Shown: one piece after another, positions 210 through 56,803 of the stretch
Layout: every line of letters begins with the position of its first letter
Numbering within the stretch: position 1 is the first letter of the stretch
Origin: Prosopocoilus inquinatus
Taxonomy: Eukaryota; Arthropoda; Insecta; Coleoptera; Lucanidae
Direction: 5' to 3'
DNA: 64,000 nt
Assembly (NCBI GenBank): GCA_036172665.1
Contig: CM069875.1
Coordinates: 12,790,001-12,854,000 of the forward strand
Translations under genes and position numbers: made by a program
The notes under the pieces: model-generated
The model's input: only the letters and a program-made list of their open reading frames with translations
Told to the model about the DNA's origin: nothing
The model's database searches: none

Positions 210-853
210 TCAAAAGGGGTAGATGTTCGTCCCAGTCCCATGGTTCTTCGAAACAACTTTAGCCAGATGTCTCTCCAAAGTCCTACTGAAACGCTCCACC
301 ATTCCAACTGACTGTGGGTGCAAGGGAGTTGTTCGCGTTTTGAAAATGCCTAGCAACTTGGTCAATTCCTGGAAAATATGTCCTTCAAAGTTCCTGCCTT
401 GTTCGGAATGGATCTCCATGGATACTCCAAATCTTGTTATCCAATTCTCTATCAAGGCATTCACAACGGTTACTGACTCTTGGTTTGGCAAAGCATAACC
501 TTCTGGCCATTTGGTGAAAAAATCAGTCACTACCATAATGTATTTGTTTCCATGGTTGGTTTCTGGAAATGGGCCGGCTATGTCAACGGCAATCCTCTCG
601 AATGGTGCTCCAACGTTGTAAGGCTGTAATTTTCCCTGAGTCTTTTTCGCGGGTCCGGATACTGCAGCACATGTAGTACACCTGGCACACCATTTTCCAC
701 ATCCGTTCTACATTTCGCCGAGTAGAATCTTTCTCGTACTTTCGACAATGTCTTGTTGATGCCCAAATGTTCACCGGACGTACCGTCTTCAATCTCTTCC
801 AGGTCCTCAGCGACCCTTACCATTGGAAGAACGAGTTGGTCTCGGTTTGCCAC
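210..853 (-). pseudogene. Gypsy integrase remnant
   Basis: Two frames carry pieces of a retroviral-type integrase. The piece at 578-853 matches the N-terminal zinc-binding part (EHLGINKTLSKVRERFY). The piece at 210-536 matches the catalytic core, with a DFFTKWPEGYALPNQE stretch and the closing GMVERF glutamate. The middle catalytic aspartate, normally in an HSDQGRN context, is glutamate here (HSEQGRN). The core ends about 50 bases before the LTR, so the C-terminal part of integrase and anything beyond it has been deleted. It is inactive. Confidence 0.88.
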
Positions 854-1092
854 CTGTCTACTATGACGCCAGTTCTTCTGATGGGAATTATCCCTTCTTT
901 ATTTTCTGCTTTTCAGCAGGGCCGACAATCCTCAGGACAAGGTCTTCTGGAGAGTGGGTCCGCATTATTATGGACACGACCTGGACGATGTTAGATTGTA
1001 AAATCATACTATTGTAATCTTTCTATCCATCTGGCAAGCTGGCCTTCTACGTTCTTAAACTGAAACAACCACTTCAATGCTGCATGGTCTGT

Positions 1093-1347
1093 TCAAAGAT
1101 GAAACTGTCGGCCATAAAGATACTTGTGAAAATGTTCTGTTGTCTTTACCATGGCAAGAAGCTCCTTTCTGGTTACACAGTAGTTCCTTTCAGCTTTCGA
1201 CAAAACTTTACTGAAGTAACCCATAACACGTTCTTGCCCGTCTTGCACTTGTGACAGTACGCCTCCAATCCCGTAGCTGCTAGTATCACTATCAATAATA
1301 AACTTGCCCTCTGATCTTGGAAAAGACAATGTAGGAGCAGTCACCAA
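1093..1347 (-). pseudogene. Gypsy RNase H remnant
   Basis: The 84-residue frame carries an IDSDTSSYGIGGVLSQ motif, the first RNase H beta strand with its aspartate, followed by the GYFSKVLSKAERNY and TRKELLAMV helices typical of gypsy pol. It corresponds closely to residues 44-115 of the 45699-48383 reading frame. It is isolated from RT by frameshifts. Confidence 0.88.
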
Positions 1348-1416
1348 TGAATCCTTCAGATTGTCAAAGGCTTCTTGGCAGTCCCTACTCCAGAAAAATG
1401 TGTTTTTTTCCTTCGA

Positions 1417-2447
1417 TCAGTGCATGTAGAGGTTTCGCTGCCTTTGCAAAGTCCCTAACGAATCGTCTGTAATAGGTGCCGAGCCCCAAGAAACTTCGTG
1501 CACATTCTTCGGTGGTGGCCAGTTCTTAACAGGTGAAATCTTATCCGAGTCGGTCGCAACTCCTGCCTCAGAGATGACATGTCCAAGGTAATTCACTTTC
1601 TTCTGGAAAAACTTGCATTTGGCCGGATTTAATTTTAGCTTCGCCTCTTCAATCCTTTGGAAAACGTTCCTCAGATTTGCAAGGTGTTCTTTGAAGGTTC
1701 TTCCAACCACAATCACATCATCTAAGTATACGAGGCAAGTCTTCCAGCTAAGTCCACGCAATACCAATTCTATGAGTCGTTCAAAAGTGGCTGGGGCGTT
1801 ACATAAACCAAAAGGCATCACCTTGAACTGCCACAGACCAGTACCTGCAGTGAAGGCTGTCTTTTCTTTGTCTTCGAGATGCATACCAACTTGCCAATAG
1901 CCACTTTTCAAGTCCATCTCGCATCGGATAAGGTGTCAATTGTATCATCAATCCGAGGTAAGGGATAGCTATCCTTTTTCGTGATATCATTTAATCGCCT
2001 GTAGTCCACACAGAAACGCGTGCTGCCATCCTTCTTAGTCACAAGTACAACAGGAGATGCCCACGGACTTTGCGACGGATCAATAATTCCTTGGCCCTGC
2101 CTCTTCTTGATTAACTTGTCAGTCTCTTCTCTCCTCGCCAATGGCAGTCTTCGTGCGGGTTGACGAATTGGATTCGAATCGCCAGTATTTATTCTGTGCT
2201 GAACAATGTCCGTCCGGGTTAAGTCTTCATCGGTAAAGGCGAAGATTCTTTTGTATTTTCGAAACAGTCCTCCTATGTCTTCTGTTGCCATGGGTGTTAA
2301 CAATGTTGATACCTCTTCCACCAATTTCTCTAGTAGTGGTGGTAGAGTGTCAGACTGATGCCGAGCGGATGCATAGTTTACTTGAATGTGTTTCACAAAA
2401 GCAATTGCTTCACATTTGCCCACCACTGTTCCGCTGGGTATGGTCAC
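1417..2447 (-). pseudogene. Gypsy reverse transcriptase remnant (two frames)
   Basis: The upstream frame (1908-2447) has the RT fingers, including [16 protein letters not shown] and [12 protein letters not shown]. The downstream frame (1417-1917) has [34 protein letters not shown] and the catalytic YLDD box. The two frames overlap by ten bases at 1908-1917, so a single indel split the domain. RT would copy the element RNA into cDNA in the capsid, but this copy cannot make the enzyme. Confidence 0.92.
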
Positions 2448-2489
2448 TGGGTAACTGTTGACATTTACGAGACGAATAGGAATTATTTC

Positions 2490-2984
2490 TTAGATATTCA
2501 CCAGAGTCCCAGCCAATAAAATTCTTTTCTTGGCGCTGCTGATCTCAGTTGGTTCTATGATTCCGGCAGGATAGCTGCCAAGACTGCCTTCCAACTTCGC
2601 CAGAATTAACTTATCGGTTAAGGCTGGAATGTTTACACTTTCGTCCAATATTACTTTTAACACTGTGGATAGATTTCCAGGAACGTGGAAAGGTATTTCT
2701 TCAGATCCAATTCGTAGAACTTTATTTTTTAAATCTACAACCAAGCCGTTTTTCTTCATGAAGTCCACTCCCAGGATGAAGTCGTCAAGAATGTCTGCCA
2801 CTAACACCCTGTGCCTGAATTTCGTACTTCCAATTTTCATGTCAATTTCGGCTTCACTACAAACTGGAGTAACCTCGCCAGTAGCTGTTTGGATGTGATA
2901 TACCTTTCCATTATTTACTAGCTTCCATTTCGGTAAAAGATCTGTTCTTATGATGGATACATTCGCTCCGGTATCAATTGTCAA
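2490..2984 (-). pseudogene. Gypsy aspartic protease remnant
   Basis: The frame opens with the retropepsin signature DTGANVSIIRTDLL (residues 4-17), then an LVADILDDFILGVDFM stretch that matches the protease flap and the second conserved region. It lies between the gag zinc knuckle and RT, as usual for gypsy elements. A stop separates it from RT. Confidence 0.88.
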
Positions 2985-3052
2985 TTCCTTATCCTGGAAA
3001 TGGAGACTATCCTGGGGCTCTTCGCAGAGTCAGTCACCATTCATTTGCGACG

Positions 3053-3094
3053 GCAATTGGAACTCACATGACCTGACTTGCCACAATTTCAACA
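3053..3094 (-). pseudogene. Broken gag zinc knuckle
   Basis: Read on the minus strand this is a C-x2-C-x4-H-x4-C retroviral zinc knuckle (ending NCGKSGHVSSNC) with an in-frame TGA directly after the first cysteine. The knuckle normally binds element RNA during packaging. Confidence 0.75.
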
Positions 3095-3505
3095 AGTTAT
3101 GATTCGCCTGGAACTGGTCACCTTCTCTTCCAGGTGCTTTAATCTTTCAAGAACTTCTGTCAGTACACTGTCATCACCAGCTTTTACTTCTCGTGCCCGT
3201 ACTAGGCTTCTAGATGGACTGTAATGTACTCAATGCTGGGCCTCGCAGAGCCAAAACGAAAGCTGCAGCTCTGTCACAGTCATTCCAGCCATTCACTCCG
3301 CAGCAATTTTGAACTGTCTGATGAAAGTAGACCAAGGTAAGTCGCTTTCGAATTTGGGTGGTTTTACTTTCTGATTTGACGACGCAGACGATGGTGCAAT
3401 TGAACGACGCAGTTCCACTTTATGCAGTTGTTTCGCTAAGTTTTCAAATTTATCTTGGAACTGAATTTTTATTCCACCAAATTTCTCATCAAGTTTATCG
3501 TCGAA

Positions 3506-3898
3506 TTACAATTTCATGTCCTTTATTGTACTATCAAACTGATTTCGTACGCCTTCAATTTTCTCGTCACATGCGGTATTAAGATCTTTGATCGTTTCAT
3601 CTATTTGCATCTTCATGTTTTCTATATTCAGATTGGTTTTTAAACTGTAAGTTTCCATTTTCATATCCAAACTTTCCATTTGTTTTCTCACTTCTTGCGT
3701 TTGCTCTTTTATATTTTCTTTCACTTCCTGCATTTCTAATTTCATATTTTCGTTACCTTTTTCCAATTTTTCTTTCAATTCTTGCATTTCTAATTTCATA
3801 TTTTCGTTACCTTTTTCCATTTTCTCTTTTCCTTCCTGCATTTCTAATTTCATGTTTTCTTTTACTTCGTGCATTTTTAGTTTCATATTATCTTTCAC
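3506..3898 (-). pseudogene. Gag coiled-coil region
   Basis: A 130-residue frame made almost entirely of charged heptad-like repeats (variants of NMKLEMQEVKE and EKLEKG). It predicts a long coiled coil at the N-terminal side of gag. The other gypsy element in the window also has a long repetitive coiled coil in gag but with a different repeat. No capsid-like sequence follows in the same frame. Confidence 0.7.
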
Positions 3899-4039
3899 TT
3901 CTTTCAGTAGAGCTGCTGCGTCTTCAATTTCAAATTCAAGTGATTACCATCCTGAATTTTCCTTCTAATTCCTCACACAGCTCTTTCACTTTTAACTCGC
4001 ACAGTTTAATTCTTGAAATTTCCGCTTCTGACACCAATT

Positions 4040-27425: not shown

Positions 27426-27875
27426 TTAAAATGTAATTTCCTCTGTAACATCTGATATATCATTCGTTGCATAATTTCTATTTGTTAGAGATTGGGGAGG
27501 TTTATAAGTGAAACATGTAAAATCGTCTAGCAAATATTTTGTATGTAGCAGTGAATTTATGGTAGATATATTTAATTTATTTCGATTTCTTGTTTTTATT
27601 AAGGTGAGTTGAGAAAATATTCTCTCTGCAGCTGCAGATGAATGCGGCAAACAAAGTAAGCCTTTCATAAAGTAGGTCAAATTTGGGAAAATCTGTTCAC
27701 CTACACCATTTCTTAAATTAAAAATCTCACTCCAAAATTCAACTAAAGGTTTTTTATTAATTACTTTAAGTTGATCTGTATCTGGTAAAAGTCTCCATTC
27801 AGAATTAAGTTTTTCAATATCTGTAACTAGTTTGGGAAATCTGTTGGCAATTGGAATTAAAGATTCAGTCATCAC
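27426..27875 (-). CDS. hAT transposase, C-terminal part
   Basis: This 149-residue frame carries the C-terminal hAT dimerisation region, with FPNLTYFMKGLLCLPHSSAAAERIFSQL (given here by its two key blocks LLCLPHSSAAAERIF and LLHTKYLL). The glutamate at residue 84 is the third catalytic residue of the DDE-type active site. It overlaps the upstream frame by 11 bases in another frame, so one indel separates two halves of one protein. Ends TGA/TAA close to the minisatellite. Without a correction or a frameshift event the full enzyme cannot be made. Confidence 0.88.
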   Translation of the reverse strand: MMTESLIPIANRFPKLVTDIEKLNSEWRLLPDTDQLKVINKKPLVEFWSEIFNLRNGVGEQIFPNLTYFMKGLLCLPHSSAAAERIFSQLTLIKTRNRNKLNISTINSLLHTKYLLDDFTCFTYKPPQSLTNRNYATNDISDVTEEITF

Positions 27876-29530
27876 GGGTCACAGAAACTGGATCTAAATT
27901 TTTAAGAAAATGTAAAACTTCATCATCAAAATCAAACCTTGACTGGATTTGCCTGGCAAGCTCTATGTAAAAGTCCAAACACGTTATCTTAAAGTTTCTT
28001 AATTCAGTCATATTAACATTCTGTAAATTATAGATAATAATCTCACATTTTGCTACGTAATAAATTTTATCTATATCATTATAATTCTCAGGTTGAAAGT
28101 TTACTTTATTAAGGGACGACACTTTTTCTAAATATTCACGTTTTAAGAAATTCTTCAAAACAGTTTTGAATAGGCTAGTTGTACGATAATATAATAAATG
28201 CAATTTTGACGATTCACTCTGAAATTCTATGTTAATTTTATTTACAATGTCTAAAATATATGACAGAAAACTAAAATACAGCTTAAATATAGGATTTTGT
28301 AGAGCTTCTACAACGGACGGAGGATTAATTGACAAACACTTATCATACGTTTCATTTGTAAAAAAAAGCAACAATGCTTGCCACTGTTCTAATATGCGGT
28401 CAACAACAGCTTGCAAAGAAAGCCATCTAGTTCCACTTAATTTTAAAAGCTTGTGTTCAGCTATATTCAGAAAATGTTGATATAATTTAAACTCATCTTG
28501 TCTTTTTGAGCTATGTGCAAAGTAAGATACAATATCTCTTGCTAAAGTCTCTACTGAAGTTGGTAACTTTTGACAGGCTGCTGAAGAACACAGTGCTAAA
28601 GAATGACAAGTGCATCCAAGTACATATATATCTGAGACTTCCTTGCTAAATTTTGTCTTCACACTATTTTTATTGCCCTGCATAACTGCAGCATTGTCTG
28701 CTGCAAAGCCTACCAGTTTTGAAAGTGGTATATTATTTTCAATAAGCAAGCATTTGATAACTTGAAATAATCCCTCTGCAGTGCTATTTTGTAGTTTTGT
28801 TAATCCTAAAAACTTATCACGAACACTATTGTTTCCAAAATAACATACTATAACAGTTAGACTTTTTTCAGTAGAAATATCCGTGCATTCATCTATTATT
28901 AAGGAGTACCAATTAACTTTCAAGTCATTTGAGACATTTTTTAAATTTTCGGGTCCAGTAATGTGAGTACAAATACTTGTACCCTTTGTACGGCTACATT
29001 TCAAGTTTTTGGCTACTTCAGAGTCATAACAAACCGATGATATAAATTTTGGCAAATGTTCCAAAATATTAAAGGAAAGATTGTGTTCTGCTAAAAATAA
29101 AATCATTTTTAATTCACCTTCTTTAATTCCTTGTCTCAATTTCTTCTCCTTATTTGAGTTATTCATTACATTCGTAATACTAGGTGTTGCCTTCAACGCT
29201 TTCATTCTCTGAATGTGAATAGAACTATTGCCATGCCTATTAACGTGTGTTATTCCACCTTGAATAACTGTGTGGCAGATTTTACAACAAGCTTTATCAC
29301 TATCTTCGATTAACCACAAGTTATTTGATTCATTTATCCAAGATTTTTTAAATTTTTGTTTAAATACATTGTTATTTGTCTTCCTTTTCTTCCTTTTGGC
29401 AGCTAGAGCCTCGTTACTGTCACTGTCAGCGTCCGAAACTGTATCGCCGTTACAGCTGCGAGAGTGAGATGATTGTTCAGGCTGAACCGCAGTTAGTGGC
29501 TTGCTTGCATTTTGTGTTGCATTAGGATTT
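27865..29530 (-). CDS. hAT transposase, BED finger and catalytic core
   Basis: The frame is open from about 29530 to 27865. Its first part is charged and likely nuclear-localising (KRKKRK at about 29390). A BED-type zinc finger follows, C-x2-C then H-x3-H (CCKIC ... HVNRH). Catalytic aspartates sit in IIDECTDIS (D143, counted from the TTG at 29319) and FAADNAAVMQG (D208), and a CTCHSLALC insertion motif follows. No in-frame ATG precedes the finger and a splice-acceptor-like TTTATTTCAAG lies at about 29536, so the start codon is probably in an upstream exon. An ATG followed by GTAAGT occurs near 29640 but its phase does not join. The closest known group is the ZBED or SCAND3-like hAT transposases. 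Confidence 0.85.
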
Positions 29531-40192: not shown

Positions 40193-41943
40193 TTAACGGA
40201 TAGCGTCTCTGTTCCGTGTATCATATTCATGCACTTCCGTACCGGACACTACTGTACTGCGATATTTATATAAATATATTGAGCATTTGATAATATAACT
40301 ATTAACGATTGTCGGGATTTTTAACTTAAGAAAATGATCTCTGCAAGACTCACGTGGACCTAAACCTAACATTGCGCGTATAGCTCGTTTTTGCAAAATT
40401 AAAATATCATTTAAAGTATGATGGTTTCCCCAAAATAAGAGACCATAATTAGCTAAACTGTCAAAGTATGCGTAGTACATACTAACTAAAGTTTTAGTAT
40501 TGCTTAAGGGTTTCATGTGTCGAAGAGCAAATATACATTAACTTAATTTCCGGCTTAGTACATCAATATGTTGATTCCAGGATAACTCCCCATCTAGTTT
40601 CAACCCTAGTAGAGAACACGATTCTGTGAACTCAAATTGTTTACCTTGACAGTTAAAAGATAATTTATGGTTGAATTCAGAGTATGGGAACGTAATTAAT
40701 TGGATTTGTCTTCTCTACGTTTATTTTCAATCGATTTAGGGTAAACCAATTTATTAGTTCTTGAAGAATTTTTTCGATATTTTCAATTAATTTATTTTCA
40801 TTTTCTGCGTGAACACAAGCTCTTGTATCATCCGCATAAAGAGTTAACGGTGCACTTACATTGGCCTGAATATCATTCATAAAAATGACAAATAAAACAG
40901 GACCGAGAAGTAAACCTTGAGGTATACCACGGCTAACGTCAGTGACATTTGAGTGTACACGTTGGCCCGTATTATAATTTAGATTTCGGTAATATGCTGT
41001 CGATTATTGAGATAAGTGCGAATCAGGTTTAATGCGCTGCCTCTCACCCCATAATAGTAAAGTTTCTGTAACAGTATATCGTAGTCTATGAGATCAAAAG
41101 CTTTGGAGAGGTCGCAGTTAATACTTGCAACCAGCTCATTGGAAATCAGTTTGTTATAAATAAAAGACAGTAGCAGTTCAACTGCGGTATGTGTTGATCT
41201 CTGTTCTCGAAAACCGTGCTGACTGTTGGAAAACAGGTTAATCACTTGAAAGAAATTAGTGAGTCTAGTTTTTATGCAGTGTTGGAAAATTTTGGATATA
41301 GCGGGCAAAATTGAGATGGGGCTATAATTAGTTACATCTTCCTTGCTGGCTTTTTTATGTACGGGTATGATTTTACCTGTCTTAAAGATCGTGGGGAAAA
41401 TTCCCGATTCAAATGAGAGATTGACCATATTTGCAAGTACATCTGCCAAATGATCTATTGTGTATTTGAGGGCCTTGATAGGTATATCATCCACTCCAAC
41501 AGCTGAAGTATTGTTTAGGGCCATGACTGTTGTCCTTATTTCGTTTGAATCAATAGGAAATAGGAACAACGTGTCTCGGCAATTTACTTTATAGCTATTC
41601 AATAAAAGGATATAATTATTTTTATTTATATCTATTGACAATGTGGCCGATTGCGCTGTATAATTTGGAATTGAAGAAAAATAATTATAAAATGAATGTT
41701 CGCACATGATTCTTTGTGACCATCAATGATCAACTCTGTTGGTGTGGTCTTAGTATTTTCCCTGTTAAGCTCGTTTTTAATAATGCGCCATGTAGTTTTA
41801 ATAACGTTTCCCGATGTGAAATAAGTGAATCTATATATTTCTTTTTAGCCATAGTAACTGTTTTTTAAGAATGTAACAATAACGTTTGAAGTAGCTTTGT
41901 CGCACGGGATTTGGAAAATACTTCAATGTAACATACAACGAAC
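40193..41943 (-). pseudogene. LINE reverse transcriptase (three frames)
   Basis: The frame at 40979-41707 has the fingers and palm start: GKIIPVHKKASKEDVTNYSP, FREQRSTHTAVELLL and CDLSKAFDLIDYDIL with the first catalytic aspartate. The frame at 40677-40880 has TLYADDTRACVHA with the YADD box. The frame at 40193-40516 has the thumb and C-terminal tail (YYAYFDSLANYGLLFWG, LQKRAIRAM). The regions are separated by stops. The segment 41708-41943 continues the linker (AKKKYIDSLISHRET) in broken frames. The enzyme would nick and copy RNA at the target. Confidence 0.88.
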
Positions 41944-42294
41944 TGTGGCGCGCCACCCGGCTTAGCTCAAGGCGTCAGGAAATCGGTTCGTTATGCGTCA
42001 TTGGCTGCCACGCCACCGGGGTCTACATCGAACAGAATAGACTTTTCCGGCGATGGAACAAACTCGAATCTTCCAGCGTTAGAAAATTCGAGAGGGCAGC
42101 AAAGGATATAAAATAGCCCGGGGTGGACTCAGGGGTCAGTCGAATTCGAACAGCGATCGTCGAAGTTAGATTTTAGTGTGAAAATAAATTGTTACAAAAT
42201 AAATTAGTTTTTAAGCTTTATTAAATTACGGTTAAGTTTTTATCGAATGTTTTATTCGTTTAAATAAATAAATTTAAACCCTAGAAACGTAACA
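41944..42294 (+). repeat. 5' LTR of the macrodomain gypsy element
   Basis: 351 bp, begins TGTGGCGCGCCACC and ends GTAACA. Confidence 0.96.
42107..42140 (+). promoter_or_regulatory. LTR core promoter (TATA box and initiator)
   Basis: TATAAAA at 42107-42113 is followed 31 bases on by TCAGT (42136-42140), the arthropod initiator. Transcription of the element probably starts at about 42138. The right LTR has the same arrangement at about 48408-48441. Confidence 0.7.
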
Positions 42295-42392: not shown

Positions 42393-43376
42393 ATGGCTAC
42401 GAGAAAAGTGTTGTTGAAAGACTTAAAAGTGGCCGAATTAAAAACCGAATTGGAAGAACGAGAGTTAGAAACCGGTGGTTTGAAAGGCGCACTTCAACAG
42501 CGTCTCCGATGCGATTTGTTGACAGCTGGTGAAGATCCAGAGACGTTCCTTTTCGAAATTTCGTGTGGTCCCGCAGATTTTAATAAAATCTTGAAGGATG
42601 AATTTCGAGAACAATCCAGAAATTTGGACGAGAAGTTTCTAGAACAATCTGGAAATTTCAAGGAAGAACTTCGAGAACAATCTGGAAATTTCAAGGAAGA
42701 ACTTCGAGAACAATCTGGAAATTTCAAGGACGAACTACGAGAACAATCCAGAAATTTGGACGAGAAGTTTCTAGAACAATCTGGAAAATTCAAGGACGAA
42801 CTTCAAGAACAATCCAGAAATTTGGACGAGAAGTTTCTAGAACAATCTGGAAATTTAGAGAAGCTTCGAGAACAATCCAGAAATTTAGAGGAGAAGCTTC
42901 TAGAACAATCTGGAAATTTCGACAAATTACAAAATAAATTGTTGGAACAATCTAGAGACTTAGACGAGAAATTTCTAGAGCAATCCAGAAATTTCGACGA
43001 GAAACTTCTAGAACAGTCCGGAAATTTGAAGGGTGAATTTCTAGAACAGACGAAAGGTCTCGAAGATAAACTAGTGGTAAAAATATCGGAAGAAACAAGA
43101 AACCTGCAAGAAAATGTGGAAGAAATAATATTCCAGCAGGATAACAAAATCAAAAATCTGGAACAAATCATGGCGGGGTTGCGAGTGTTCGGGGATCAGC
43201 CACCAGTACTAGAAAATAATGAAACCCGAATTGTGGAAGGACCAGCAGAAAATTCGAAATTGAAAATAAAACCACCAACGTTCGATGGAAAGTCTTCTTG
43301 GCCCAACTACTTCAAACAGTTCGAAGCAGCAGCAAAGGCGAACAGATGGACGGCAGCGAAAAAGCCACTTCGTTAA
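42393..43376 (+). CDS. Gag N-terminal part with repeated coiled coil
   Basis: The 327-residue frame starts MATRKVLLKDLKVAELK and residues 4-40 resemble a SAP-like helix-extended-helix (KDLKVAELKTELEERELETG, GLKGALQQRL). Residues about 70-235 are a tandem array of near-identical 11-residue units such as EQSGNFKEELR and EQSRNLDEKFL. A capsid start (PPTFDGKSSWPNYFKQFEAA) follows at about residue 297. The frame stops at 43374-43376 in mid-capsid because of a single-base shift within GCGAAAAAGCC (about 43358). The repeat predicts a long rod. SAP motifs bind DNA, which would be unusual in gag. Confidence 0.85.
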   Translation: MATRKVLLKDLKVAELKTELEERELETGGLKGALQQRLRCDLLTAGEDPETFLFEISCGPADFNKILKDEFREQSRNLDEKFLEQSGNFKEELREQSGNFKEELREQSGNFKDELREQSRNLDEKFLEQSGKFKDELQEQSRNLDEKFLEQSGNLEKLREQSRNLEEKLLEQSGNFDKLQNKLLEQSRDLDEKFLEQSRNFDEKLLEQSGNLKGEFLEQTKGLEDKLVVKISEETRNLQENVEEIIFQQDNKIKNLEQIMAGLRVFGDQPPVLENNETRIVEGPAENSKLKIKPPTFDGKSSWPNYFKQFEAAAKANRWTAAKKPLR

Positions 43377-44746
43377 TTGTGGCCTTGAGAGGGGACGCTA
43401 TCGATGTGCTACAGACGATGCCGCCAGAGGAACAAGAAGACTTCGACAAGCTGGTGAATAGGATGGAAATGCGTTACGGACAGGCCCATCTGACCGAGGT
43501 ATACCATGCGCAGTTGAGGAATCGCTGTCAGAAATCCGGAGAAAGTCTTCAGGAATTCGAAGCGGACGTAGCGCGTCTGGCCCAGTTGGCATATCCCACA
43601 GCTCCTGTTGAATTCCTCAAATGTTTGACGGTGCAGACCTTCATAGATGGAATCCGTGACCCAGACAACCAGCAGGCATTGAGAATGACCCATCCGAAGA
43701 CGTCCAAGAACGCATTGGCTTATGCCTTGGAATTTGAAGCGGCGAGACGAGTTTCAAGAGGGCATGTCAAGGTGCGAGCGGCTACGGACTTCCAAGAGGA
43801 AGAAGAGGAAGAATCCGCTAACTCCAAGGTGGGATCTGCTATAAAGGAGCGACCCAGGGAATATGCCACCGCCGAGGATGTTCGCCGCATTGTGGAACAG
43901 GTCCTCAAGCAGAAGAAGCCGCTGGTGTGTTGGAATTGCCAGGAGGAAGGACATGTTCGTAGGCGATGTCCAAAGAAGACAGGATCCAAGAAAGCCACAG
44001 TTAAACTAAGCCGGGTCGGTGCAGAGGGGCAAACGTCGACCCGTATTCAAAGGCCCCCAAGGACGAAAGCCAACCAAGTAATGTTCCTACGGCAGTTAAC
44101 CAGCAGTGTCTTCGTGGATGTTACCATTGATGACATTCCTCACATCATGTTGTTGGATACGGGTGCGACGAAGACCATCCTAAGACCCGACGTCATTAAG
44201 TCATCTGGACGCACCGAGCCGACCAAGTGGAGACTGAAAACTGCAACTGGAACATCAGCAACTGTCCACGGTGAAGTAGAGGTTATCATCACCATTGGTT
44301 CAACTCCAATAAAACACCGTGCACTGGTGGCAGATATAGAGGACGAGTCAATTTTGGGCATGGACGTCATGTGTGCCCACGGGTTGCAATTGGACTTAAA
44401 GCGTGGCGTGATGGCGGTCAATAATGAGGAGTTGGTTCTACATCAACGAGGGGACGTGGCCGCTCGAGTAGTCCTCGCTGAAGACGTTGTATTACCCAGC
44501 AGGACTGAGGTTATCGTCGACGCAAAACTGGACGGTGTTTTTCAAGATGGGCAAGTCATTATGGTTGAACCTAATACTGATGATCAGAAGATTGGAAGAG
44601 GAGTCCTCGTTGGGAAAATGTTGTTGACGGCGAAGAAGGAAGTACCCGTCCGCCTGATGAACGTCAATTGTTTCTCCGTCAATATCAAGAAAGGAACCAT
44701 CTTGGGAAGCTGCACCATGGTGTCCTCCATCTCCCGCCAACTTTAA
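43298..44746 (+). CDS. Gag C-terminal part and aspartic protease
   Basis: Translation in the frame that is one base back picks up the capsid from about residue 23 (EKATSLIVALRGDAIDVLQT). It continues through the capsid C-terminal domain, a zinc knuckle at residues 211-224 (C-x2-C-x4-H-x4-C, CWNCQEEGHVRRRC), and the protease, with MLLDTGATKTILR (catalytic aspartate about 287) and ILGMDVMCAHGLQLD. The region after it, rich in VVLPSRTEVIVDAKL, resembles the spacer before RT in gypsy pol. The first 20 codons of this frame are an artefact of the shift. It ends at 44746 just before RT. Confidence 0.88.
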   Translation: MAQLLQTVRSSSKGEQMDGSEKATSLIVALRGDAIDVLQTMPPEEQEDFDKLVNRMEMRYGQAHLTEVYHAQLRNRCQKSGESLQEFEADVARLAQLAYPTAPVEFLKCLTVQTFIDGIRDPDNQQALRMTHPKTSKNALAYALEFEAARRVSRGHVKVRAATDFQEEEEEESANSKVGSAIKERPREYATAEDVRRIVEQVLKQKKPLVCWNCQEEGHVRRRCPKKTGSKKATVKLSRVGAEGQTSTRIQRPPRTKANQVMFLRQLTSSVFVDVTIDDIPHIMLLDTGATKTILRPDVIKSSGRTEPTKWRLKTATGTSATVHGEVEVIITIGSTPIKHRALVADIEDESILGMDVMCAHGLQLDLKRGVMAVNNEELVLHQRGDVAARVVLAEDVVLPSRTEVIVDAKLDGVFQDGQVIMVEPNTDDQKIGRGVLVGKMLLTAKKEVPVRLMNVNCFSVNIKKGTILGSCTMVSSISRQL

Positions 44747-45630
44747 ACAAACGTGCCAGAAGCGAAAGTCCCAATGAAGTTATGGGAAATGGTTATGTCA
44801 ACAGCTCAGAAATTGACTCCAGACCAGAAGACAAAAGCAAAGAATCTGATCGGCCGTTACCAAGATGTATCGAGGTAGAAAAAGGATCCAAGGGAAGAAC
44901 TGATGTCGTGAAACACAAAATAGAGACTGGAGAAGAAAGACCTATCCGTCAAGCTCCAAGGCGATTACCGTTGGCGAAGCGTGAGGAAGCGGAACGCATT
45001 ATTCGCGAGATGGAAAAGGATAATGTGATAGAACCATCAAGCAGCCCGTGGGCGTCACCAGTAGTGCTTGTGAAGAAGAAGGATGGGTCCACCAGGTTCT
45101 GTGTAGACTACCGGTTACTCAATAATGTCACCAAGAAGGACAGCTATCCCCTGCCACGGATTGATACCCTGGACACCCTGGCCGGCTCAAAGATCTTCTC
45201 AACTTTGGACTTAAAGAGTGGATATTGGCAAGTGGAGCTGGCGCCCGAAGATCGAGAAAAGACGGCGTTTTCCATTGGTATGGGTCTGTGGCAGTTCACA
45301 GTGATGCCATTCGGATTATGTAATGCCCCAGCGACATTCGAGAGGTTAATGGAGACGGTTCTGAAAGGTCTGTCCTGGACAACGTGCATGGTGTACCTTG
45401 ACGACATAATTGTCGTGGGAAAGACGTTCGACGACCACCTAAGGAACTTGGAAGGAGTGTTCCAGCGGCTTCGCGGAGCTGGACTAAAGCTTAGCCTCAA
45501 GAAGTGTCACCTGTTCCAGAAGGAAGTGAATTACCTGGGGCACATTGTTAATGGAAATGGAATCGCTGTGGACCCTGTGAAGATTCAGGTGGTGAAAGAC
45601 TGGCCAACTCCCAGAATAAACACCAAATAA
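44668..45630 (+). CDS. Reverse transcriptase, frame broken at both ends
   Basis: From about 44890 this frame reads as [60 protein letters not shown] and the catalytic box YLDD at residues 243-246. The first 70 or so codons are out of phase with the true N-terminus, which lies in another frame (about 44750-44880). The stop at 45630 precedes a further one-base shift, after which the connection domain continues in the next frame (FLGLCTYYRRYVPGF). Very similar to the RT at 1417-2447. Confidence 0.93.
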   Translation: MFLRQYQERNHLGKLHHGVLHLPPTLNKRARSESPNEVMGNGYVNSSEIDSRPEDKSKESDRPLPRCIEVEKGSKGRTDVVKHKIETGEERPIRQAPRRLPLAKREEAERIIREMEKDNVIEPSSSPWASPVVLVKKKDGSTRFCVDYRLLNNVTKKDSYPLPRIDTLDTLAGSKIFSTLDLKSGYWQVELAPEDREKTAFSIGMGLWQFTVMPFGLCNAPATFERLMETVLKGLSWTTCMVYLDDIIVVGKTFDDHLRNLEGVFQRLRGAGLKLSLKKCHLFQKEVNYLGHIVNGNGIAVDPVKIQVVKDWPTPRINTK

Positions 45631-45698: not shown

Positions 45699-48383
45699 TT
45701 GACAAAACTCACTGAAGAAGGTCGTCCGTTTGAATGGGACCAACAGTGTCAAATTGGCTTTGAACAACTAAAGCAGTACTTGATTAGTGCTCCTATTCTG
45801 AGTTATCCTCTCCCGGAAGGCAAATTCGTCGTGGACACAGATGCTAGCAACGTTGGGATTGGTGGCGTACTCTCCCAGATACAAGAGCGGCAAGAGAAGG
45901 TGATCGGCTACTTCAGTAAAGTCCTATCAAAGCCGGAACGAAACTATTGCGTCACAAGAAGGGAATTGCTAGCCGTCGTAAAAACGATAGAACACTTCTA
46001 CAAGTACTTGTATGGTAGACGCTTCCTGCTGAGGACCGACCATGCCGCTCTAAAATGGCTTCTCCGTTTTAAGAACCCAGAAGGGCAAGTTGCACGATGG
46101 ATCGAACGACTTCAGGAGTACGACTTTGAAATTCAGCATCGGGCAGGAACTAGCCATCGAAATGCCGATGCTTTGTCGAGAAGACCCTGTGCCGAAGACT
46201 GTAAGCACTGTAGTCGTTTGGACGAGAAAGTAGCCACGACTGCGAGGACAGCCATTGTTGACGACAAATGGCAAGCCGAAGAACTGCGAAGAGACCAGGA
46301 GAACGACCCGGATTTGAAATTAGTGCTAGAGTGGAAAAGCAGGGACGCGAGGCCTACCTGGGAAGAGGTAGCACCATGTGCACCGTCCGTAAAATCATAC
46401 TGGGCGCAGTGGGACTCCATAGTGTTGGATCGTGGTCTTCTGAGACGAAGCATGGAGAATCCAGAAGGCATGGAACAAAAGACACAGTTACTAATCCCCA
46501 AGAATAGGGTGCCAGAAGTTCTGAGGGAACTTCACGATGGAACTTCGGGAGGGCATCTGGGAGTTAAGAAGACTATGGAGAAGGTGCGCGAAAGATTTTA
46601 CTGGGTGAACTGCAAGGAAGACGTGAAGGATTGGTGCAGAAAGTGTGCAGTCTGCGCAGCCAGTAACGGCCCCCACAGGCGGGGTAAGGCCCCCATGAGA
46701 CAGTACAACGTTGGAAGTCCTTTTGAGAGAGTTGCCATCGATGTAGCCGGCCCGTTTCCAGAAACGAATGGTGGAAACAAGTACATCGTCGTGGTAATGG
46801 ACTACTTTAGTAAGTGGGTTGAAGCTTACGCCCTACCTAACCAAGAGGCAGTCACTATTGCGGAAGTCCTTGTCAGGGAATGGATCAGTCGGTATGGTGC
46901 ACCTATGGAACTGCATTCAGACCAAGGAAGGAACTTTGAATCGGCCTTGTTCAAGAACGTGTGTACTCTGCTCGGCGTACGAAAAACTAGAACAACTGCA
47001 CTCCACCCACAGTCGGACGGAATGGTGGAAAGGTTCAATAGAACCATCAACCGACATTTGTCCAAGGTCGTTTCCAATCATCAGAGAGATTGGGACACGT
47101 ACATCCCCCTGTTTCTAATGGCATACCGCTCATCTGTTCATGAGACAACAGGGGAGACTCCCGCGAAAGTGGTATTCGGGCGAGAGCCGAGACTGCCCTG
47201 CGACCTGAAGTTTGGTGTGAAGCCTGGCGAAGTCTCTGCCGACGAAGATTACGTGAGCAAATTACGCAGGAAAATGGATGATATCCACAACCAAGTGCGT
47301 CACAATATACAGACGGCCAGCGATCGGATGAAGGAGCACTATGACATCAACGCTCAACACGGGGGATACCAACCTGGAGCGCTGGTCTGGCTTTATAACC
47401 CCCAAAGACGTCGAGGCCTCTCCCCAAAATTGCAGACCTCTTGGGAAGGTCCTTACAAAGTGATGAAACGGATCAACGACGTCGTTTACCGCATCAAGAA
47501 GGTCCCCCATGGCAAACCCAAAGTAATCCACTTCAACCGGATAGCCCCTTACCATGGAGAAGCAGATGAAGGGACAGTACAAAGGGCGCAAGTTTCCGAA
47601 GTGAACTTCGAAACCTTCATGTCTCATCACGCCGAAGGAAGCAAGGCACGGTTTGGAGTGACCACGGAGAAGCAACAAGATCTCTTTAAAGTGCCACTGG
47701 AGTACAGTCTGGCCCACTGCGTAGCAGAAGACCTGAAAATGTCCAAAGGAATCGCTCAGGTGTTTAGGAAGAAATTTGGCCAAATCGAGGAGCTACGAAG
47801 ACAGCATCCCATGGTAGGCAAGAGCTTGCAGATCATTGATTCGACGGCAGATCGGAGGCGCCACGTGCATTATTTAGTCACTAAGAAGACATCAAGCGGT
47901 AAACCTGACTATCAAAGTATGTGGAGAGCGCTATATAGCCTGAGGAGACAGCTAATAGAGAACCATCAGATGAAGTTAGCCATCCCCAAATTGGGCTGCG
48001 GATTGGTCGGACTAGACTGGAGAGTAATTCGAAGCATGCTGGAAGTCATCTTCCACAGAACGGGAATTGAAGTCCTAGTCTGCAGCCACCACCCACAGGC
48101 AACAGTCAGCAACAGCAAAACCGTAGACTGCTACTTCTTCCAGACGGGAAGTTGCAAGAATGGGCCAGCATGTAGATTCCGACACCCTCCTTCAAGACTA
48201 TCACCAGGAACATTTCGAGACGAAACGTTTTTAAGAAGGGGGCAGTGTGGCGCGCCACCCGGCTTAGCTCAAGGCGTCAAGAAGTCGGTTCGTTATGCGT
48301 CATTGGCTGCCACGCCACCGGGGTCGACATCGAACAGCCTAGACTTTTCCGGCGACGGAACAAACTCGAATCTTCCAGCGTAG
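45699..48383 (+). CDS. RNase H - integrase - macrodomain - CCCH zinc finger polyprotein
   Basis: An uninterrupted 894-residue frame. RNase H (1-150) has VVDTDAS at about 44-50. The integrase zinc domain has H279, H286, C313, C316. The core has D348, D408 and E444 (DD35E, spacings 59 and 35), and a GPY/F-like module (TSWEGPYKVMKR) follows at about 585. Residues 652-795 are a macrodomain of the OARD1/TARG1 type, with YSLAHCVAEDLKMSKGIAQVF, HYLVTKKTSS (K729 at the catalytic lysine) and IPKLGCGLVGLDW (V770 where human OARD1 has the catalytic Asp125). A CCCH finger follows: C811-x7-C819-x5-C825-x3-H829. The last 45 residues read into the 3' LTR. RNase H and integrase are standard. The macrodomain would bind or remove ADP-ribose. 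The ORF could yield Pol processed by the element protease. Confidence 0.95.
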   Translation: MTKLTEEGRPFEWDQQCQIGFEQLKQYLISAPILSYPLPEGKFVVDTDASNVGIGGVLSQIQERQEKVIGYFSKVLSKPERNYCVTRRELLAVVKTIEHFYKYLYGRRFLLRTDHAALKWLLRFKNPEGQVARWIERLQEYDFEIQHRAGTSHRNADALSRRPCAEDCKHCSRLDEKVATTARTAIVDDKWQAEELRRDQENDPDLKLVLEWKSRDARPTWEEVAPCAPSVKSYWAQWDSIVLDRGLLRRSMENPEGMEQKTQLLIPKNRVPEVLRELHDGTSGGHLGVKKTMEKVRERFYWVNCKEDVKDWCRKCAVCAASNGPHRRGKAPMRQYNVGSPFERVAIDVAGPFPETNGGNKYIVVVMDYFSKWVEAYALPNQEAVTIAEVLVREWISRYGAPMELHSDQGRNFESALFKNVCTLLGVRKTRTTALHPQSDGMVERFNRTINRHLSKVVSNHQRDWDTYIPLFLMAYRSSVHETTGETPAKVVFGREPRLPCDLKFGVKPGEVSADEDYVSKLRRKMDDIHNQVRHNIQTASDRMKEHYDINAQHGGYQPGALVWLYNPQRRRGLSPKLQTSWEGPYKVMKRINDVVYRIKKVPHGKPKVIHFNRIAPYHGEADEGTVQRAQVSEVNFETFMSHHAEGSKARFGVTTEKQQDLFKVPLEYSLAHCVAEDLKMSKGIAQVFRKKFGQIEELRRQHPMVGKSLQIIDSTADRRRHVHYLVTKKTSSGKPDYQSMWRALYSLRRQLIENHQMKLAIPKLGCGLVGLDWRVIRSMLEVIFHRTGIEVLVCSHHPQATVSNSKTVDCYFFQTGSCKNGPACRFRHPPSRLSPGTFRDETFLRRGQCGAPPGLAQGVKKSVRYASLAATPPGSTSNSLDFSGDGTNSNLPA

Positions 48384-48596
48384 AGAATTCCAGACGGCAG
48401 CAAATGATATAAAATCGCCCGGAGTTGACTCACCAGTCAGTCGAATTCGAACAGCGATCGTCGAAGTTAGATTTTAGTGTGAAAATAAATTGTTACAAAT
48501 AAATTAGTTTTTAAGCTTTATTAAATTACGGTTAAGTTTTTTTATCGAGTGTTTTATTCGTTTAAATAAATAAATTTAAACCCTAGAAACGTAACA
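48246..48596 (+). repeat. 3' LTR of the macrodomain gypsy element
   Basis: 351 bp, same ends as the 5' LTR, about 94% identical by eye, with differences concentrated at 48373-48430. Confidence 0.96.
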
Positions 48597-48941
48597 GAAC
48601 GTTTAGTTTTAGAGGAATTAATTATTCCTTGAGTTATCCATGTTTTGACATTAATTTTTCGCCGTTTTCGTAAAGGGAAGCTAGCGCTAAATATATCATA
48701 AAACTTTTGATAGAAAAGAGACACTTTTCCGTCAATGTCCCCACAAGAAAGCACATCATTCCATTGTATTTTTTGTATATTGATTTTAAATTTAATTAGA
48801 TTTTTATCAGAGAATTCTCGATAATATTCTCGATAATATTCTACGCGTCTTCTGTTACATTTATAAAATTGTTGAAATGTATAAAAATCATATTACGATC
48901 CGAGAGATCAATTGTTACGTTTTCTGTCCAAAAAGACATTG
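48597..48941 (-). pseudogene. LINE linker between endonuclease and RT
   Basis: The minus strand reads QWNDVLSCGDIDGKVSLFYQ, FPLRKRRKINVKTWITQGII and NSSKTKR, the usual sequence between LINE EN and RT. It then continues at 41943 beyond the gypsy insertion. Toward the right, FLDRKRNN ends at 48935, where the LINE is interrupted by fold-back sequence. Confidence 0.85.
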
Positions 48942-53632: not shown

Positions 53633-55162
53633 ATGTCAAATATCCGCCGCAGCGAACGAATTCGGAATTTGCATGAAAAATCGCGCAACCCTCCAGCCGC
53701 AAACATGAATGCCGCGTCGGAAGTCGTCCAAATGTCCGCGCAACAGCTTCAGCAATTGCTAGCAGGAGTTCAAGCTCAAGTGACGCAGCAATTGCAGGAC
53801 ATGCAAACGAGCTTTCGCCGAGAACTGGACGACCGCGCTCATACACCAGCTTCGACAGTGTCGGAACTGCACGGTAATTTTACAAAGTGTTCGTCACGTT
53901 TGTTCGGGTCGAAACAGGACAATGTTGAGGAGTTTATCGACTCAATTAATACGTATAAAGACTGTATCGGAATAACGGATGCAAACGCGATCAGAGGACT
54001 TTCGATGCTACTAACCGGAGATGCCGCCACTTGGTGGCAGGGCATAAAATCTAGTGTTGCGGACTGGCAATCAGCGATAAGTGCCCTTAAAAACTCTTAC
54101 GGACCCGAAAAGCCTGCGTATCAGGTATATCGCGAGTTATTTGCGTCGGAACAGGACGAAAACGTTTCCACAGACATATACGTAAGCAAAGCTTGTGCTC
54201 TGCTGTCGCACCTTAAAAATCCGCCATCTATCGAAATACAGTTAGATATGATATACGGGTTGTTACATAGAAAAATTCGGAAAAGTGTTAGACGTGACGA
54301 TATAACAAACTTTGACGACTTATTACAAAGTGCTCGCGAGACCGAACGAAGACTCAATGAATCATTAGCATCAAAGAAAGTGCCTAAAATCAAACCACCC
54401 GAAATACAATCAAAACCTCGAACGCGATGTACATTTTGTAAGAACTTTGGACGACACTCTAGTGACGAATGCCAAATTAAAGCGAGACAAATTGCGAAAC
54501 AGGTGCAAGCGGACGTGCCCAGTTCAACTACCGCTAGCACATCACAAATCAAATGCTACGGGTGCGGAACTCCCGGAAGGATCAGGTCTAAGTGTCCGAC
54601 CTGCAACCCCGCGCTAGCCCAACGGCAAACGAATGACACTCAGCAGGTAGTGCTTAATTATACGGCTATCCTAAAAATTTATGCGGGCTGTAAATCTGGT
54701 GTGAAGCCCTTATTACCGTTTTCTTTATTCGGCTGCAAAGGGATCGCGGTCGTTGATTCAGGTGCCCAAACAAGTGTAGCGGGTCGCCGTGTTTACGATT
54801 TTTTAAAGACGAATAACCATCCGTTTAAAGCAGGAGAAGCGAGAGAACAAGACGTACTGATAGCGGACGTTATAATTGAAATTAAAGGCAAAAATGTCCC
54901 GGTCAGCTTCGTAATTTTACCCGATTTACAAAATAATCGTACTCTGCTGGGAATAGACTTTCTTCAAAAGGCGGGCATTATCGTTAACTATAACCAGAGC
55001 GTATGGAGTTTTGCGGAGCAGCCGGAACTGACGTATGAGTTCGCGGAAGATGTCGTAATCGCTTCGGATGTCACAGTAGCCCGTCAGGAAACACTTTCTT
55101 CGGAACTGCAACTTCGTCCTAACGAAGGCGAAAAGCTGACGCTCCGCAACGCAAGCAATTAA
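53633..55162 (+). CDS. Gag and aspartic protease of the truncated gypsy element
   Basis: A 509-residue frame. The N-terminus is basic (MSNIRRSERIRNLHEKSRNP), then a glutamine-rich coiled coil (residues 30-70) and a capsid domain (about 85-245; WWQGIKSSVADWQSA, YGPEKPAYQVYRELF). Two zinc knuckles follow: CTFCKNFGRHSSDEC fits C-x2-C-x4-H-x4-C, and CYGCGTPGRIRSKC has arginine in place of histidine. The protease has VVDSGAQTSVAG with its aspartate and LLGIDFLQKAGI. The start ATG at 53633 lies about 350 bases after the primer site. The frame is intact; RT follows in another frame after about 115 bases. Confidence 0.88.
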   Translation: MSNIRRSERIRNLHEKSRNPPAANMNAASEVVQMSAQQLQQLLAGVQAQVTQQLQDMQTSFRRELDDRAHTPASTVSELHGNFTKCSSRLFGSKQDNVEEFIDSINTYKDCIGITDANAIRGLSMLLTGDAATWWQGIKSSVADWQSAISALKNSYGPEKPAYQVYRELFASEQDENVSTDIYVSKACALLSHLKNPPSIEIQLDMIYGLLHRKIRKSVRRDDITNFDDLLQSARETERRLNESLASKKVPKIKPPEIQSKPRTRCTFCKNFGRHSSDECQIKARQIAKQVQADVPSSTTASTSQIKCYGCGTPGRIRSKCPTCNPALAQRQTNDTQQVVLNYTAILKIYAGCKSGVKPLLPFSLFGCKGIAVVDSGAQTSVAGRRVYDFLKTNNHPFKAGEAREQDVLIADVIIEIKGKNVPVSFVILPDLQNNRTLLGIDFLQKAGIIVNYNQSVWSFAEQPELTYEFAEDVVIASDVTVARQETLSSELQLRPNEGEKLTLRNASN

Positions 55163-55169
55163 ATGAGTT

Positions 55170-56495
55170 ACTAGAAACACACGCGCACGTTTTTCAACCG
55201 AGATCGGAACCGACGCCTTTCGCGGAACATCGAATCGACACAGGAGACCATCCGCCGATCGCCGTTCCGCCTTATCGAATGAGTCCCGCAAATAAGGAGA
55301 TTCTTCGCGAGGAATTAGACTCGATGTTAGCAGAAGGCATTATAGAAGAGTGCGAATCTCCGTGGGCGGCGCCGCTCGTACTAGTGCCAAAGAAAAACGG
55401 GGGTGTTCGCGTTTGTGTGGACTTTCGCCGACTAAATGCGGTCACGAAAAAGGACTCCTATCCGATGCCGCGGTTAGACGACTTGCTGCAAACAAATAAG
55501 ACTACGTGTTTTATTTCTACTCTAGATTTGCGGGGTACTGGCAAGTGCGTGTGCGGGATGAGGATCGGGATAAGACTTGTTTCGTGTGTCCGTTGGGAAC
55601 TTACAGATTTACGCGTATGCCTTTCGGCTTAACTAATGCGCCAATGACCTTTCAGCGCTTAATGGATCATTTTCGCGCCGGGTTAAAGGAACGCTGTGTC
55701 GCCACGTATATGGATGACGTCATTATAGTCTCCAGTACGTTTGAGGAACATTTGACTGACTTGAGTGCGGTATTTGATAGGCTGAAATTGTTTCAACTGC
55801 GCGCTCATCGCGAAAAGTGCGTATTTGCCGGGAACTCTGTTAAATATTTGGGACATGTGATCTCTGACCAAGGTGTGAGTGTTGATACCGACAAAGTCAG
55901 CGCCATTAAAAACATTGCGTCACCAAAAAATGTAAAAGAAATTTTAAGCTTCTATCAAATGTGTTCTTGGTATCGGCGATATATCCGGAATTTTGCGGAT
56001 GTTGCGAGGCCGTTGTCTTTGCTCACTCGGAAAAATGTGACCTGGAAATGGGGTGATGAGGAACAACATGCGTTCGACTCCTTGAAAAAGCTACTGACAG
56101 AAGCACCTATATTACGGCAAGCGGAACCTTCAGAACGGTACATCTTGCGGACCGATGCAAGCGCGTACGCCTTGGGGGTTGTTTTACTCCAGGGGGAGGG
56201 TGTCGAGGAGAAACCCATTGAGTACGCTAGCCGATTATTAACTGCAGCTGAGAAGAATTACTCCACTACAGAGCGGGAGGCTCTCGCCGTCGTATGGGCA
56301 GTAGCGAAATTTCGCAGTTATATTGAAGGAAGTGAAATTCTCGTAATAACGGACCACCAACCACTGAAATGGTTGTTTGCATTAAAATCACCGACGGGAC
56401 GATTGGCACGTTGGGCACTTCAACTGCAAGGGTTTAAGCTGCACGTAGCACATACGCCCGGGAGAGCCAATGTCATAGCCGACGCTTTATACTGA
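55170..56495 (+). pseudogene. RT and RNase H of the truncated gypsy element
   Basis: The RT start (55170-55545) has ECESPWAAPLVLVPKKNGG, VCVDFRRLN and STLDLR. A one-base shift near 55535 moves into the next frame with YWQVRVRDEDRDKTCF, PFGLTNAPMTFQRL and the catalytic YMDD. RNase H follows (YILRTDASAYALGVVLLQGE, TEREALAVVWAVAKF). The frame ends at an in-frame TGA at 56493-56495 where gypsy pol normally reads ADALSR. Confidence 0.9.
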
Positions 56496-56501
56496 CTTCC
56501 A

Positions 56502-56803
56502 ATGACTCAGGATGAAGCGGAAGCCCGAGATATCCAGCTAGTGAGTGTAGACATGCCCACGAGACCTCCAGAGGAAATACGCCAGGCTCAGCTCCAAGAC
56601 GCGGAAGTACGAAAAATAATCGAGGCTTTTGAAGGGGAAGACGACGCGGCCAGTGTTCGTAGGGCAGAACGAGTGTACATCATGGCACGAGGGGTATTAT
56701 ACAGATACGACCAAGACGATGAAAACGAAGAACCGCAACAAGTCGTGCCTGCACAAGAGCGCCCTTTAATCGTGCACGAGTATCATGGCTGGCTGCTTGG
56801 GTA
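56502..56803 (+). pseudogene. Linker before integrase, truncated
   Basis: In the same frame after the TGA, the sequence continues as the pol linker (QLQDAEVRKIIEAFEGE, RGVLYRYDQDD, IVHEYHGWLLG). It stops before the His-Cys zinc site, where subterminal sequence of the inverted-repeat element begins. Confidence 0.8.

Follow-up and report, generated by a model that had tools for sequence, protein, structure and literature searches.

A 64,000-nucleotide stretch of the genome of the beetle Prosopocoilus inquinatus (contig CM069875.1; hereafter "the window") raises the question of what an ADP-ribose-binding domain is doing at the end of a retrotransposon polyprotein. A preliminary description had claimed that a single open frame runs from RNase H through a DD35E integrase into a tail resembling OARD1/TARG1. 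That frame is indeed present, comprising 894 codons at 45699-48383, with Pfam domains RT_RNaseH (E 3e-33), Integrase_H2C2, rve, Integrase_p58_C and zf-CCCH in place, and the D-D-35-E spacing was confirmed by eye on the translation.

The frame belongs to an element on the plus strand with the features of a Ty3/gypsy LTR retrotransposon, namely LTRs, a target duplication and the order PR-RT-RH-IN. The target-site duplication, GAAC, occupies 41940-41943 and 48597-48600 and adjoins a 5′ LTR of the TG...CA type (41944-42294) and a 3′ LTR (48246-48596). The two LTRs are 351 bp each and differ by 18 mismatches in 351 aligned columns (K2P 0.053). The N-terminal part of Gag (42393-43376, with its frame ending near 43.3 kb) contains a SAP domain (Pfam, E 6e-7) and, after it, roughly twelve 11-residue repeats encoded by 33-nt units. 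A SAP domain inside Gag seems unusual; Pfam SAP was also found in many relatives from Aromia among the matches listed. According to the ORF list and Pfam, Gag, protease and reverse transcriptase are spread over differing frames: the C-terminal part of Gag with its CCHC knuckle, and then the aspartic protease (43298-44746), are in a different frame from the N-terminal part, and the reverse transcriptase (44668-45630; RVT_1, E 5e-38) follows after a further frame change and runs up to a stop codon near 45.63 kb. The 894-codon frame then starts with RNase H (45699-46121) and passes through the integrase (46122-47573), which comprises the H2C2 zinc domain, the rve core with DD35E and a GPY/F-type C-terminal module, into a TARG1/OARD1-type macrodomain of 144 residues (47658-48089) and a CCCH zinc finger (48129-48185). 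No chromodomain was found in the 894-residue frame by a Pfam scan (15 families at E 0.1). A purine-rich stretch directly 5′ of the 3′ LTR (48233-48245) is likely to be the polypurine tract, and the last codons of the long frame and its stop (48381-48383) lie inside the 3′ LTR.

The window also contains other mobile elements. At its left edge, at about 219-3900 on the minus strand, is a decayed relative from the element group to which the main element belongs; its RT, RNase H and integrase pieces are 55-66% identical to those of the main element. When this relative was followed 5 kb outwards, tblastn detected no macrodomain; it is no proof of a macro-less sister lineage, since much of the integrase tail is missing as well. 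Another gypsy-like element, at 53633-56786, has a 509-codon Gag/protease frame, RT and RNase H that are 31-47% identical to the main element. A fragment of a LINE-type reverse transcriptase, recognized by eye, lies just 5′ of the 5′ LTR (40979-41707, minus strand), and two frames at 27426-29319 (minus strand) have motifs that we take to resemble those of a hAT-type transposase.

The tail of the 894-codon frame matched human TARG1/C6orf130/OARD1 among solved structures with an E-value of 4e-28 over query residues 37-177, which is far beyond chance, and the macrodomain model of an intact relative adopts the TARG1 macrodomain fold. The assignment to OARD1/TARG1 thus stands. Profile searches gave a mixed answer, as the 894-residue frame reached 25.7 bits with Pfam zf-CCCH (cut-off 20.5), but only 17.0 bits with Pfam Macro (cut-off 22). 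In the alignment, the lysine equivalent to the nucleophilic K84 of TARG1 is encoded at 47883-47885. The GCGL motif, to which the preliminary description drew attention, is likewise present, but the residue after it, which is the catalytic aspartate (D125) in TARG1, is a valine in the window copy (GTC, 48006-48008, as aligned with the sister copies). By sequence, the window copy does not qualify as a working TARG1: the catalytic aspartate has been lost and the frame is broken, so that the enzyme is probably dead, and the domain is predicted to bind at best, without hydrolysis.

The finger has the C-x7-C-x5-C-x3-H spacing originally claimed for it. Its nearest solved structure is CPSF4 (CPSF30), with an E-value of 5.5e-8 over 26 residues, from which the transposon differs in having a single finger, and no chain named ZAP was present among the 22 solved-structure matches of the window tail. 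We therefore reject a ZAP/PARP13-type identity for the finger, and the pairing with ZAP-type PARPs that had seemed striking finds no sequence support. In relatives the finger is variable. At the cut-off used, P0131 gave no match to CPSF4, and those of P0159 and P0242 are weak; P0126, P0127 and P0130 have a macrodomain without a finger; and in P0133 from Brassicogethes the finger is present with its first cysteine changed. When the transposon-type proteins were clustered at 80% identity, 15 of the 22 clusters had an intact CCCH pattern, and those without it (P0126, P0127, P0130, P0132, P0133, P0134 and P0178) include some short predictions. A general RNA-binding role is likely for the finger; that it is tied to 3′-end formation is only a thought.

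Is the fusion peculiar to this one copy? Searches of the species' own genome (649.6 Mb in 173 contigs) with the macrodomain plus finger yielded 2547 candidates, and the 140 that were scored were all 94-100% identical to the query; 80 of these macro-chosen copies were fetched for sequence comparison. With the integrase as query, 131 of 4824 candidates were scored, of which 52, including the window, tie at the top score and 45 lie in one open frame of at least 1900 codons, both counts resting on table values transcribed by hand. The frame changes of the window copy are therefore most likely damage. When the downstream 861 bases were inspected in 20 of the 131 integrase-chosen copies, all 20 carried the macrodomain, at 95-97% DNA identity, and 19 were open through the finger. 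As far as sampled, then, the extension belongs to the family. A finger-less query, P0132, had 150 of 1331 candidates scored, all at 52-55% identity, and no closer finger-less form was seen among them.

The same extension is found in other insects. The macro-plus-finger query detected 211 proteins at an E-value of 0.01 among the 5.8 billion searched; within the 120 of these matches that were listed, most are from Aromia moschata and Molorchus minor (55-57% identity), and many of those also have integrase or protease domains. P0115 as query retrieved 12 proteins, including full Pol proteins and one or more from Callosobruchus maculatus, and a macro-only profile added Brassicogethes aeneus, Pyrocoelia pectoralis, Macrosteles quadrilineatus and Nilaparvata lugens among the 120 of 673 matches listed. 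Macrosteles and N. lugens are hemipterans; lineage records were consulted for Macrosteles, Brassicogethes and Pyrocoelia. P0132 (Macrosteles) and P0178 (Nilaparvata) appear to be pieces of transposons, judging from the tree described below and, for P0132, also from its first residues. A scan of viral contigs with P0131 found no relative. P0122 and P0126 are insect-type macro retrotransposons although they come from an assembly of the fungus Erysiphe pulchra, where their contigs measure 5.4 and 6.5 kb; insect contamination is the probable explanation. A host-type protein was also encountered, P0128 of Tenebrio molitor (950 aa), with one full TARG1-like macrodomain at residues 192-331 and additional matches to it that are weak and degenerate. 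With relatives in the protein databases and a macrodomain in all 20 integrase-chosen genomic copies examined, we reject the idea that the fusion is a one-off accident: an OARD1/TARG1-type gene was joined to Pol behind integrase, and the union persists in sister copies and in other insects.

For comparison across the family we set 145 transposon-type proteins against 105 others. As 101 of the 145 belong to a single cluster, the one that includes the Aromia copies, counts at the protein level are redundant, and we therefore also give counts for the 22 clusters. The nucleophilic lysine is present in 145/145 transposon-type proteins (the window included), in 22/22 clusters and in 80/80 sister copies. 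The catalytic aspartate is found in 143/145 proteins and 21/22 clusters, and is lacking in the window and in P0082. In the genomic copies this position is aspartate in 79 of the 80 sister copies (histidine in one) and in all 20 integrase-chosen copies; valine was seen in none of the 80 and none of the 20. We accordingly reject the notion that valine marks a successful subfamily of dead enzymes.

In other respects the transposon domain departs from TARG1. The published TARG1 pattern, TKx(30,35)Px[IL]GxGxD (PMC6397177), is matched strictly by 17 of 84 distinct transposon sequences versus 100 of 104 others, mostly because the phosphate loop is ASG in many of the former; when the phosphate loop is relaxed, 80 of the 84 fit. 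The window copy departs from the pattern at D. In addition, loop 1 has serine instead of glycine in 144/145 transposon-type proteins versus 5/105 others, a comparison in which loop 1 itself, along with the search of origin and inspection by eye, served to class the proteins.

The transposon macrodomains also form a clade of their own. In a tree of 65 macrodomains, hand-picked for spread (23 of the 145 transposon-type proteins, 41 of the 105 others and human OARD1), a branch supported at 100/98 separates the 23 transposon domains from the 42 others. Within the transposon clade, the finger-less domains group together with support of 96/91. Trees of the integrase core and of the macrodomain from 12 elements both recover the finger-less trio (94/92 and 100/99, respectively) and the pair P0115 and P0123 (100/99 and 98/94); P0007 and P0065 pair in the macrodomain tree (85/86) and form no resolved pair in the integrase tree. 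For these 12 elements the two trees nowhere disagree with support. Since the transposon macrodomains form one clade and the trees show no supported disagreement, the simplest reading of the sequences would be one capture, followed by joint descent of macrodomain and integrase.

Could the domain be an inert passenger, an exon that was captured and is simply tolerated? Its rate of change would suit such an origin. Over 66 pairs the mean identity is 0.56 for the macrodomain and 0.79 for the integrase core; the macrodomain thus evolves faster, yet its frame stays open, and in 11 relatives that are only 48-62% identical to the window macrodomain the frame and the catalytic residues are intact. When neutral change was simulated with substitutions only, 42 in 400 lineages (10.5%) were without a stop at 76% identity, which also speaks against a passenger. 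Within the genome the picture is less clear. In the 80 macro-chosen copies, which were selected by protein similarity over the very region tested, macrodomain variants shared by at least three copies comprised 10 silent and 1 replacement change, and private variants 45 and 74; the integrase figures were 38 and 24 for shared and 146 and 328 for private variants. We reject the ratio of 10:1 at face value, as the copies were picked by similarity there and the integrase-chosen set tempers it: in those 20 copies the shared macrodomain variants were 3 silent and 6 replacement, which, on these few sites, shows no constraint and counts in favour of a passenger. Pooling the 100 copies gave 14 silent and 7 replacement shared variants versus 43 and 75 private ones (p 0.015, against a passenger), a comparison that omits two-copy variants (13 silent, 15 replacement, 1 stop) and 3 private stops. 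Because the 80-copy sample is biased and the 20 copies show no constraint, the within-genome test is suggestive only, and the conservation of the catalytic residues between species weighs more. All told, we regard an inert passenger as very improbable.

What, then, would the domain do? Taken alone, the idea that the macrodomain of the family is an ADP-ribosyl hydrolase seems to us a good bet, because the Lys-Asp pair is kept. With somewhat less assurance, we lean towards regarding the window element as a decayed member of a young Ty3/gypsy-like family with many copies, whose Gag-Pol ends in a TARG1-type hydrolase and, in most relatives, a CPSF4-like CCCH finger; the hydrolase would ease expression or integration. 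The macrodomain would be made with every Gag-Pol and, being encoded at its end, should be wherever integrase is, whether it stays attached to the integrase or is cut off. There it may free acidic residues of mono-ADP-ribose, or of entire chains cut where they join the protein, and its targets would be either chromatin or silencing proteins of the host or proteins of the element itself. Expression or integration would then be less hindered, and the finger would probably add RNA binding. Removal of ADP-ribosylation imposed by the host would be the most likely role. Host chromatin and silencing proteins are the first candidate substrates because, according to PMC4695847, SIRT6 mono-ADP-ribosylates KAP1 and thereby silences L1 in mammals. 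The stronger statement, that an insect retrotransposon lineage has long carried an active hydrolase in its Gag-Pol and uses it to erase an ADP-ribosylation mark of host silencing or damage, we put forward tentatively, as something that may well prove wrong.

The main rival to the eraser reading is tethering in the manner of a chromodomain, with hydrolysis secondary: the macrodomain would recognize chromatin that bears ADP-ribose, such as that at breaks, tether the integrase there and so steer integration. Its position directly behind the GPY module would suit such a tether, solved TARG1 structures contain bound ADP-ribose, and macrodomains recognize ADP-ribose derivatives (PMC5413906). The ASG phosphate loop, the serine in loop 1 and the fast change all count against an eraser; the loop changes could tune binding, and a binding-only role would fit some of these observations. 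The retention of lysine in every cluster and of aspartate in all but one is, however, more than binding alone should need, and we consider a reader rather unlikely. Less probable still is that the domain works not on a host mark but within the element itself, for example by undoing ADP-ribosylation of Gag, integrase or RNA ends. In some copies the macrodomain shares one long frame with Gag and Pol, so that enzyme and element proteins should meet in the particle, and the CCCH finger suggests contact with RNA; on the other hand, the finger-less P0126, P0127 and P0130 indicate that RNA contact through the finger is not essential. On balance, erasure of a host-imposed modification remains the reading that we prefer.

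Compared with known systems, the element shares with Ty3/gypsy the LTRs, target duplication, CCHC Gag, PR-RT-RNase H-IN order and GPY-type C-terminus, and differs by the extra domains behind integrase and the SAP domain at the N-terminus of Gag. Chromoviruses are gypsy elements with a chromodomain behind integrase, and so resemble it in having an additional module with a link to chromatin in this position; here, the position is taken by a macrodomain with enzyme residues, and there is no chromodomain. From cellular TARG1 the transposon form is set apart by its fusion to Pol, its own clade and its loops. The macrodomains of alphavirus nsP3, coronaviruses and Kadipiro virus VP8 provide another likeness, a parasite with an ADP-ribose-binding or -erasing domain, although these are RNA viruses and not transposons. 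The best viral structure match is Kadipiro virus VP8 (BFVD A0A8E0KJF2), which shares 41% identity with the model of the transposon macrodomain, whereas alphavirus macrodomains are ~15% identical; as we take Kadipiro virus to be an RNA virus, a TARG1-like domain would occur in such a virus too. We found no description of a macrodomain in an LTR retrotransposon in a search that covered mostly literature other than subscription journals and preprints. Each part is of a known kind; what appears to be new is their union in a Pol module that is fixed, widespread and recently amplified. As far as our searches show, counter-defence by ADP-ribose erasure is known from RNA viruses and has been described from no retroelement.

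The family offers a retroelement parallel to the viral macrodomains, and its natural series of forms with and without a finger, with changed loops and with dead copies could be used to relate TARG1 sequence to function. Should the enzyme be active, this very abundant retrotransposon would bring along its own means of erasing ADP-ribosylation, and ADP-ribosylation as a defence against retroelements, which SIRT6 and KAP1 suggest for mammals, would become directly testable. If the eraser reading is true, it would mean that insects restrain their retrotransposons via ADP-ribosylation.
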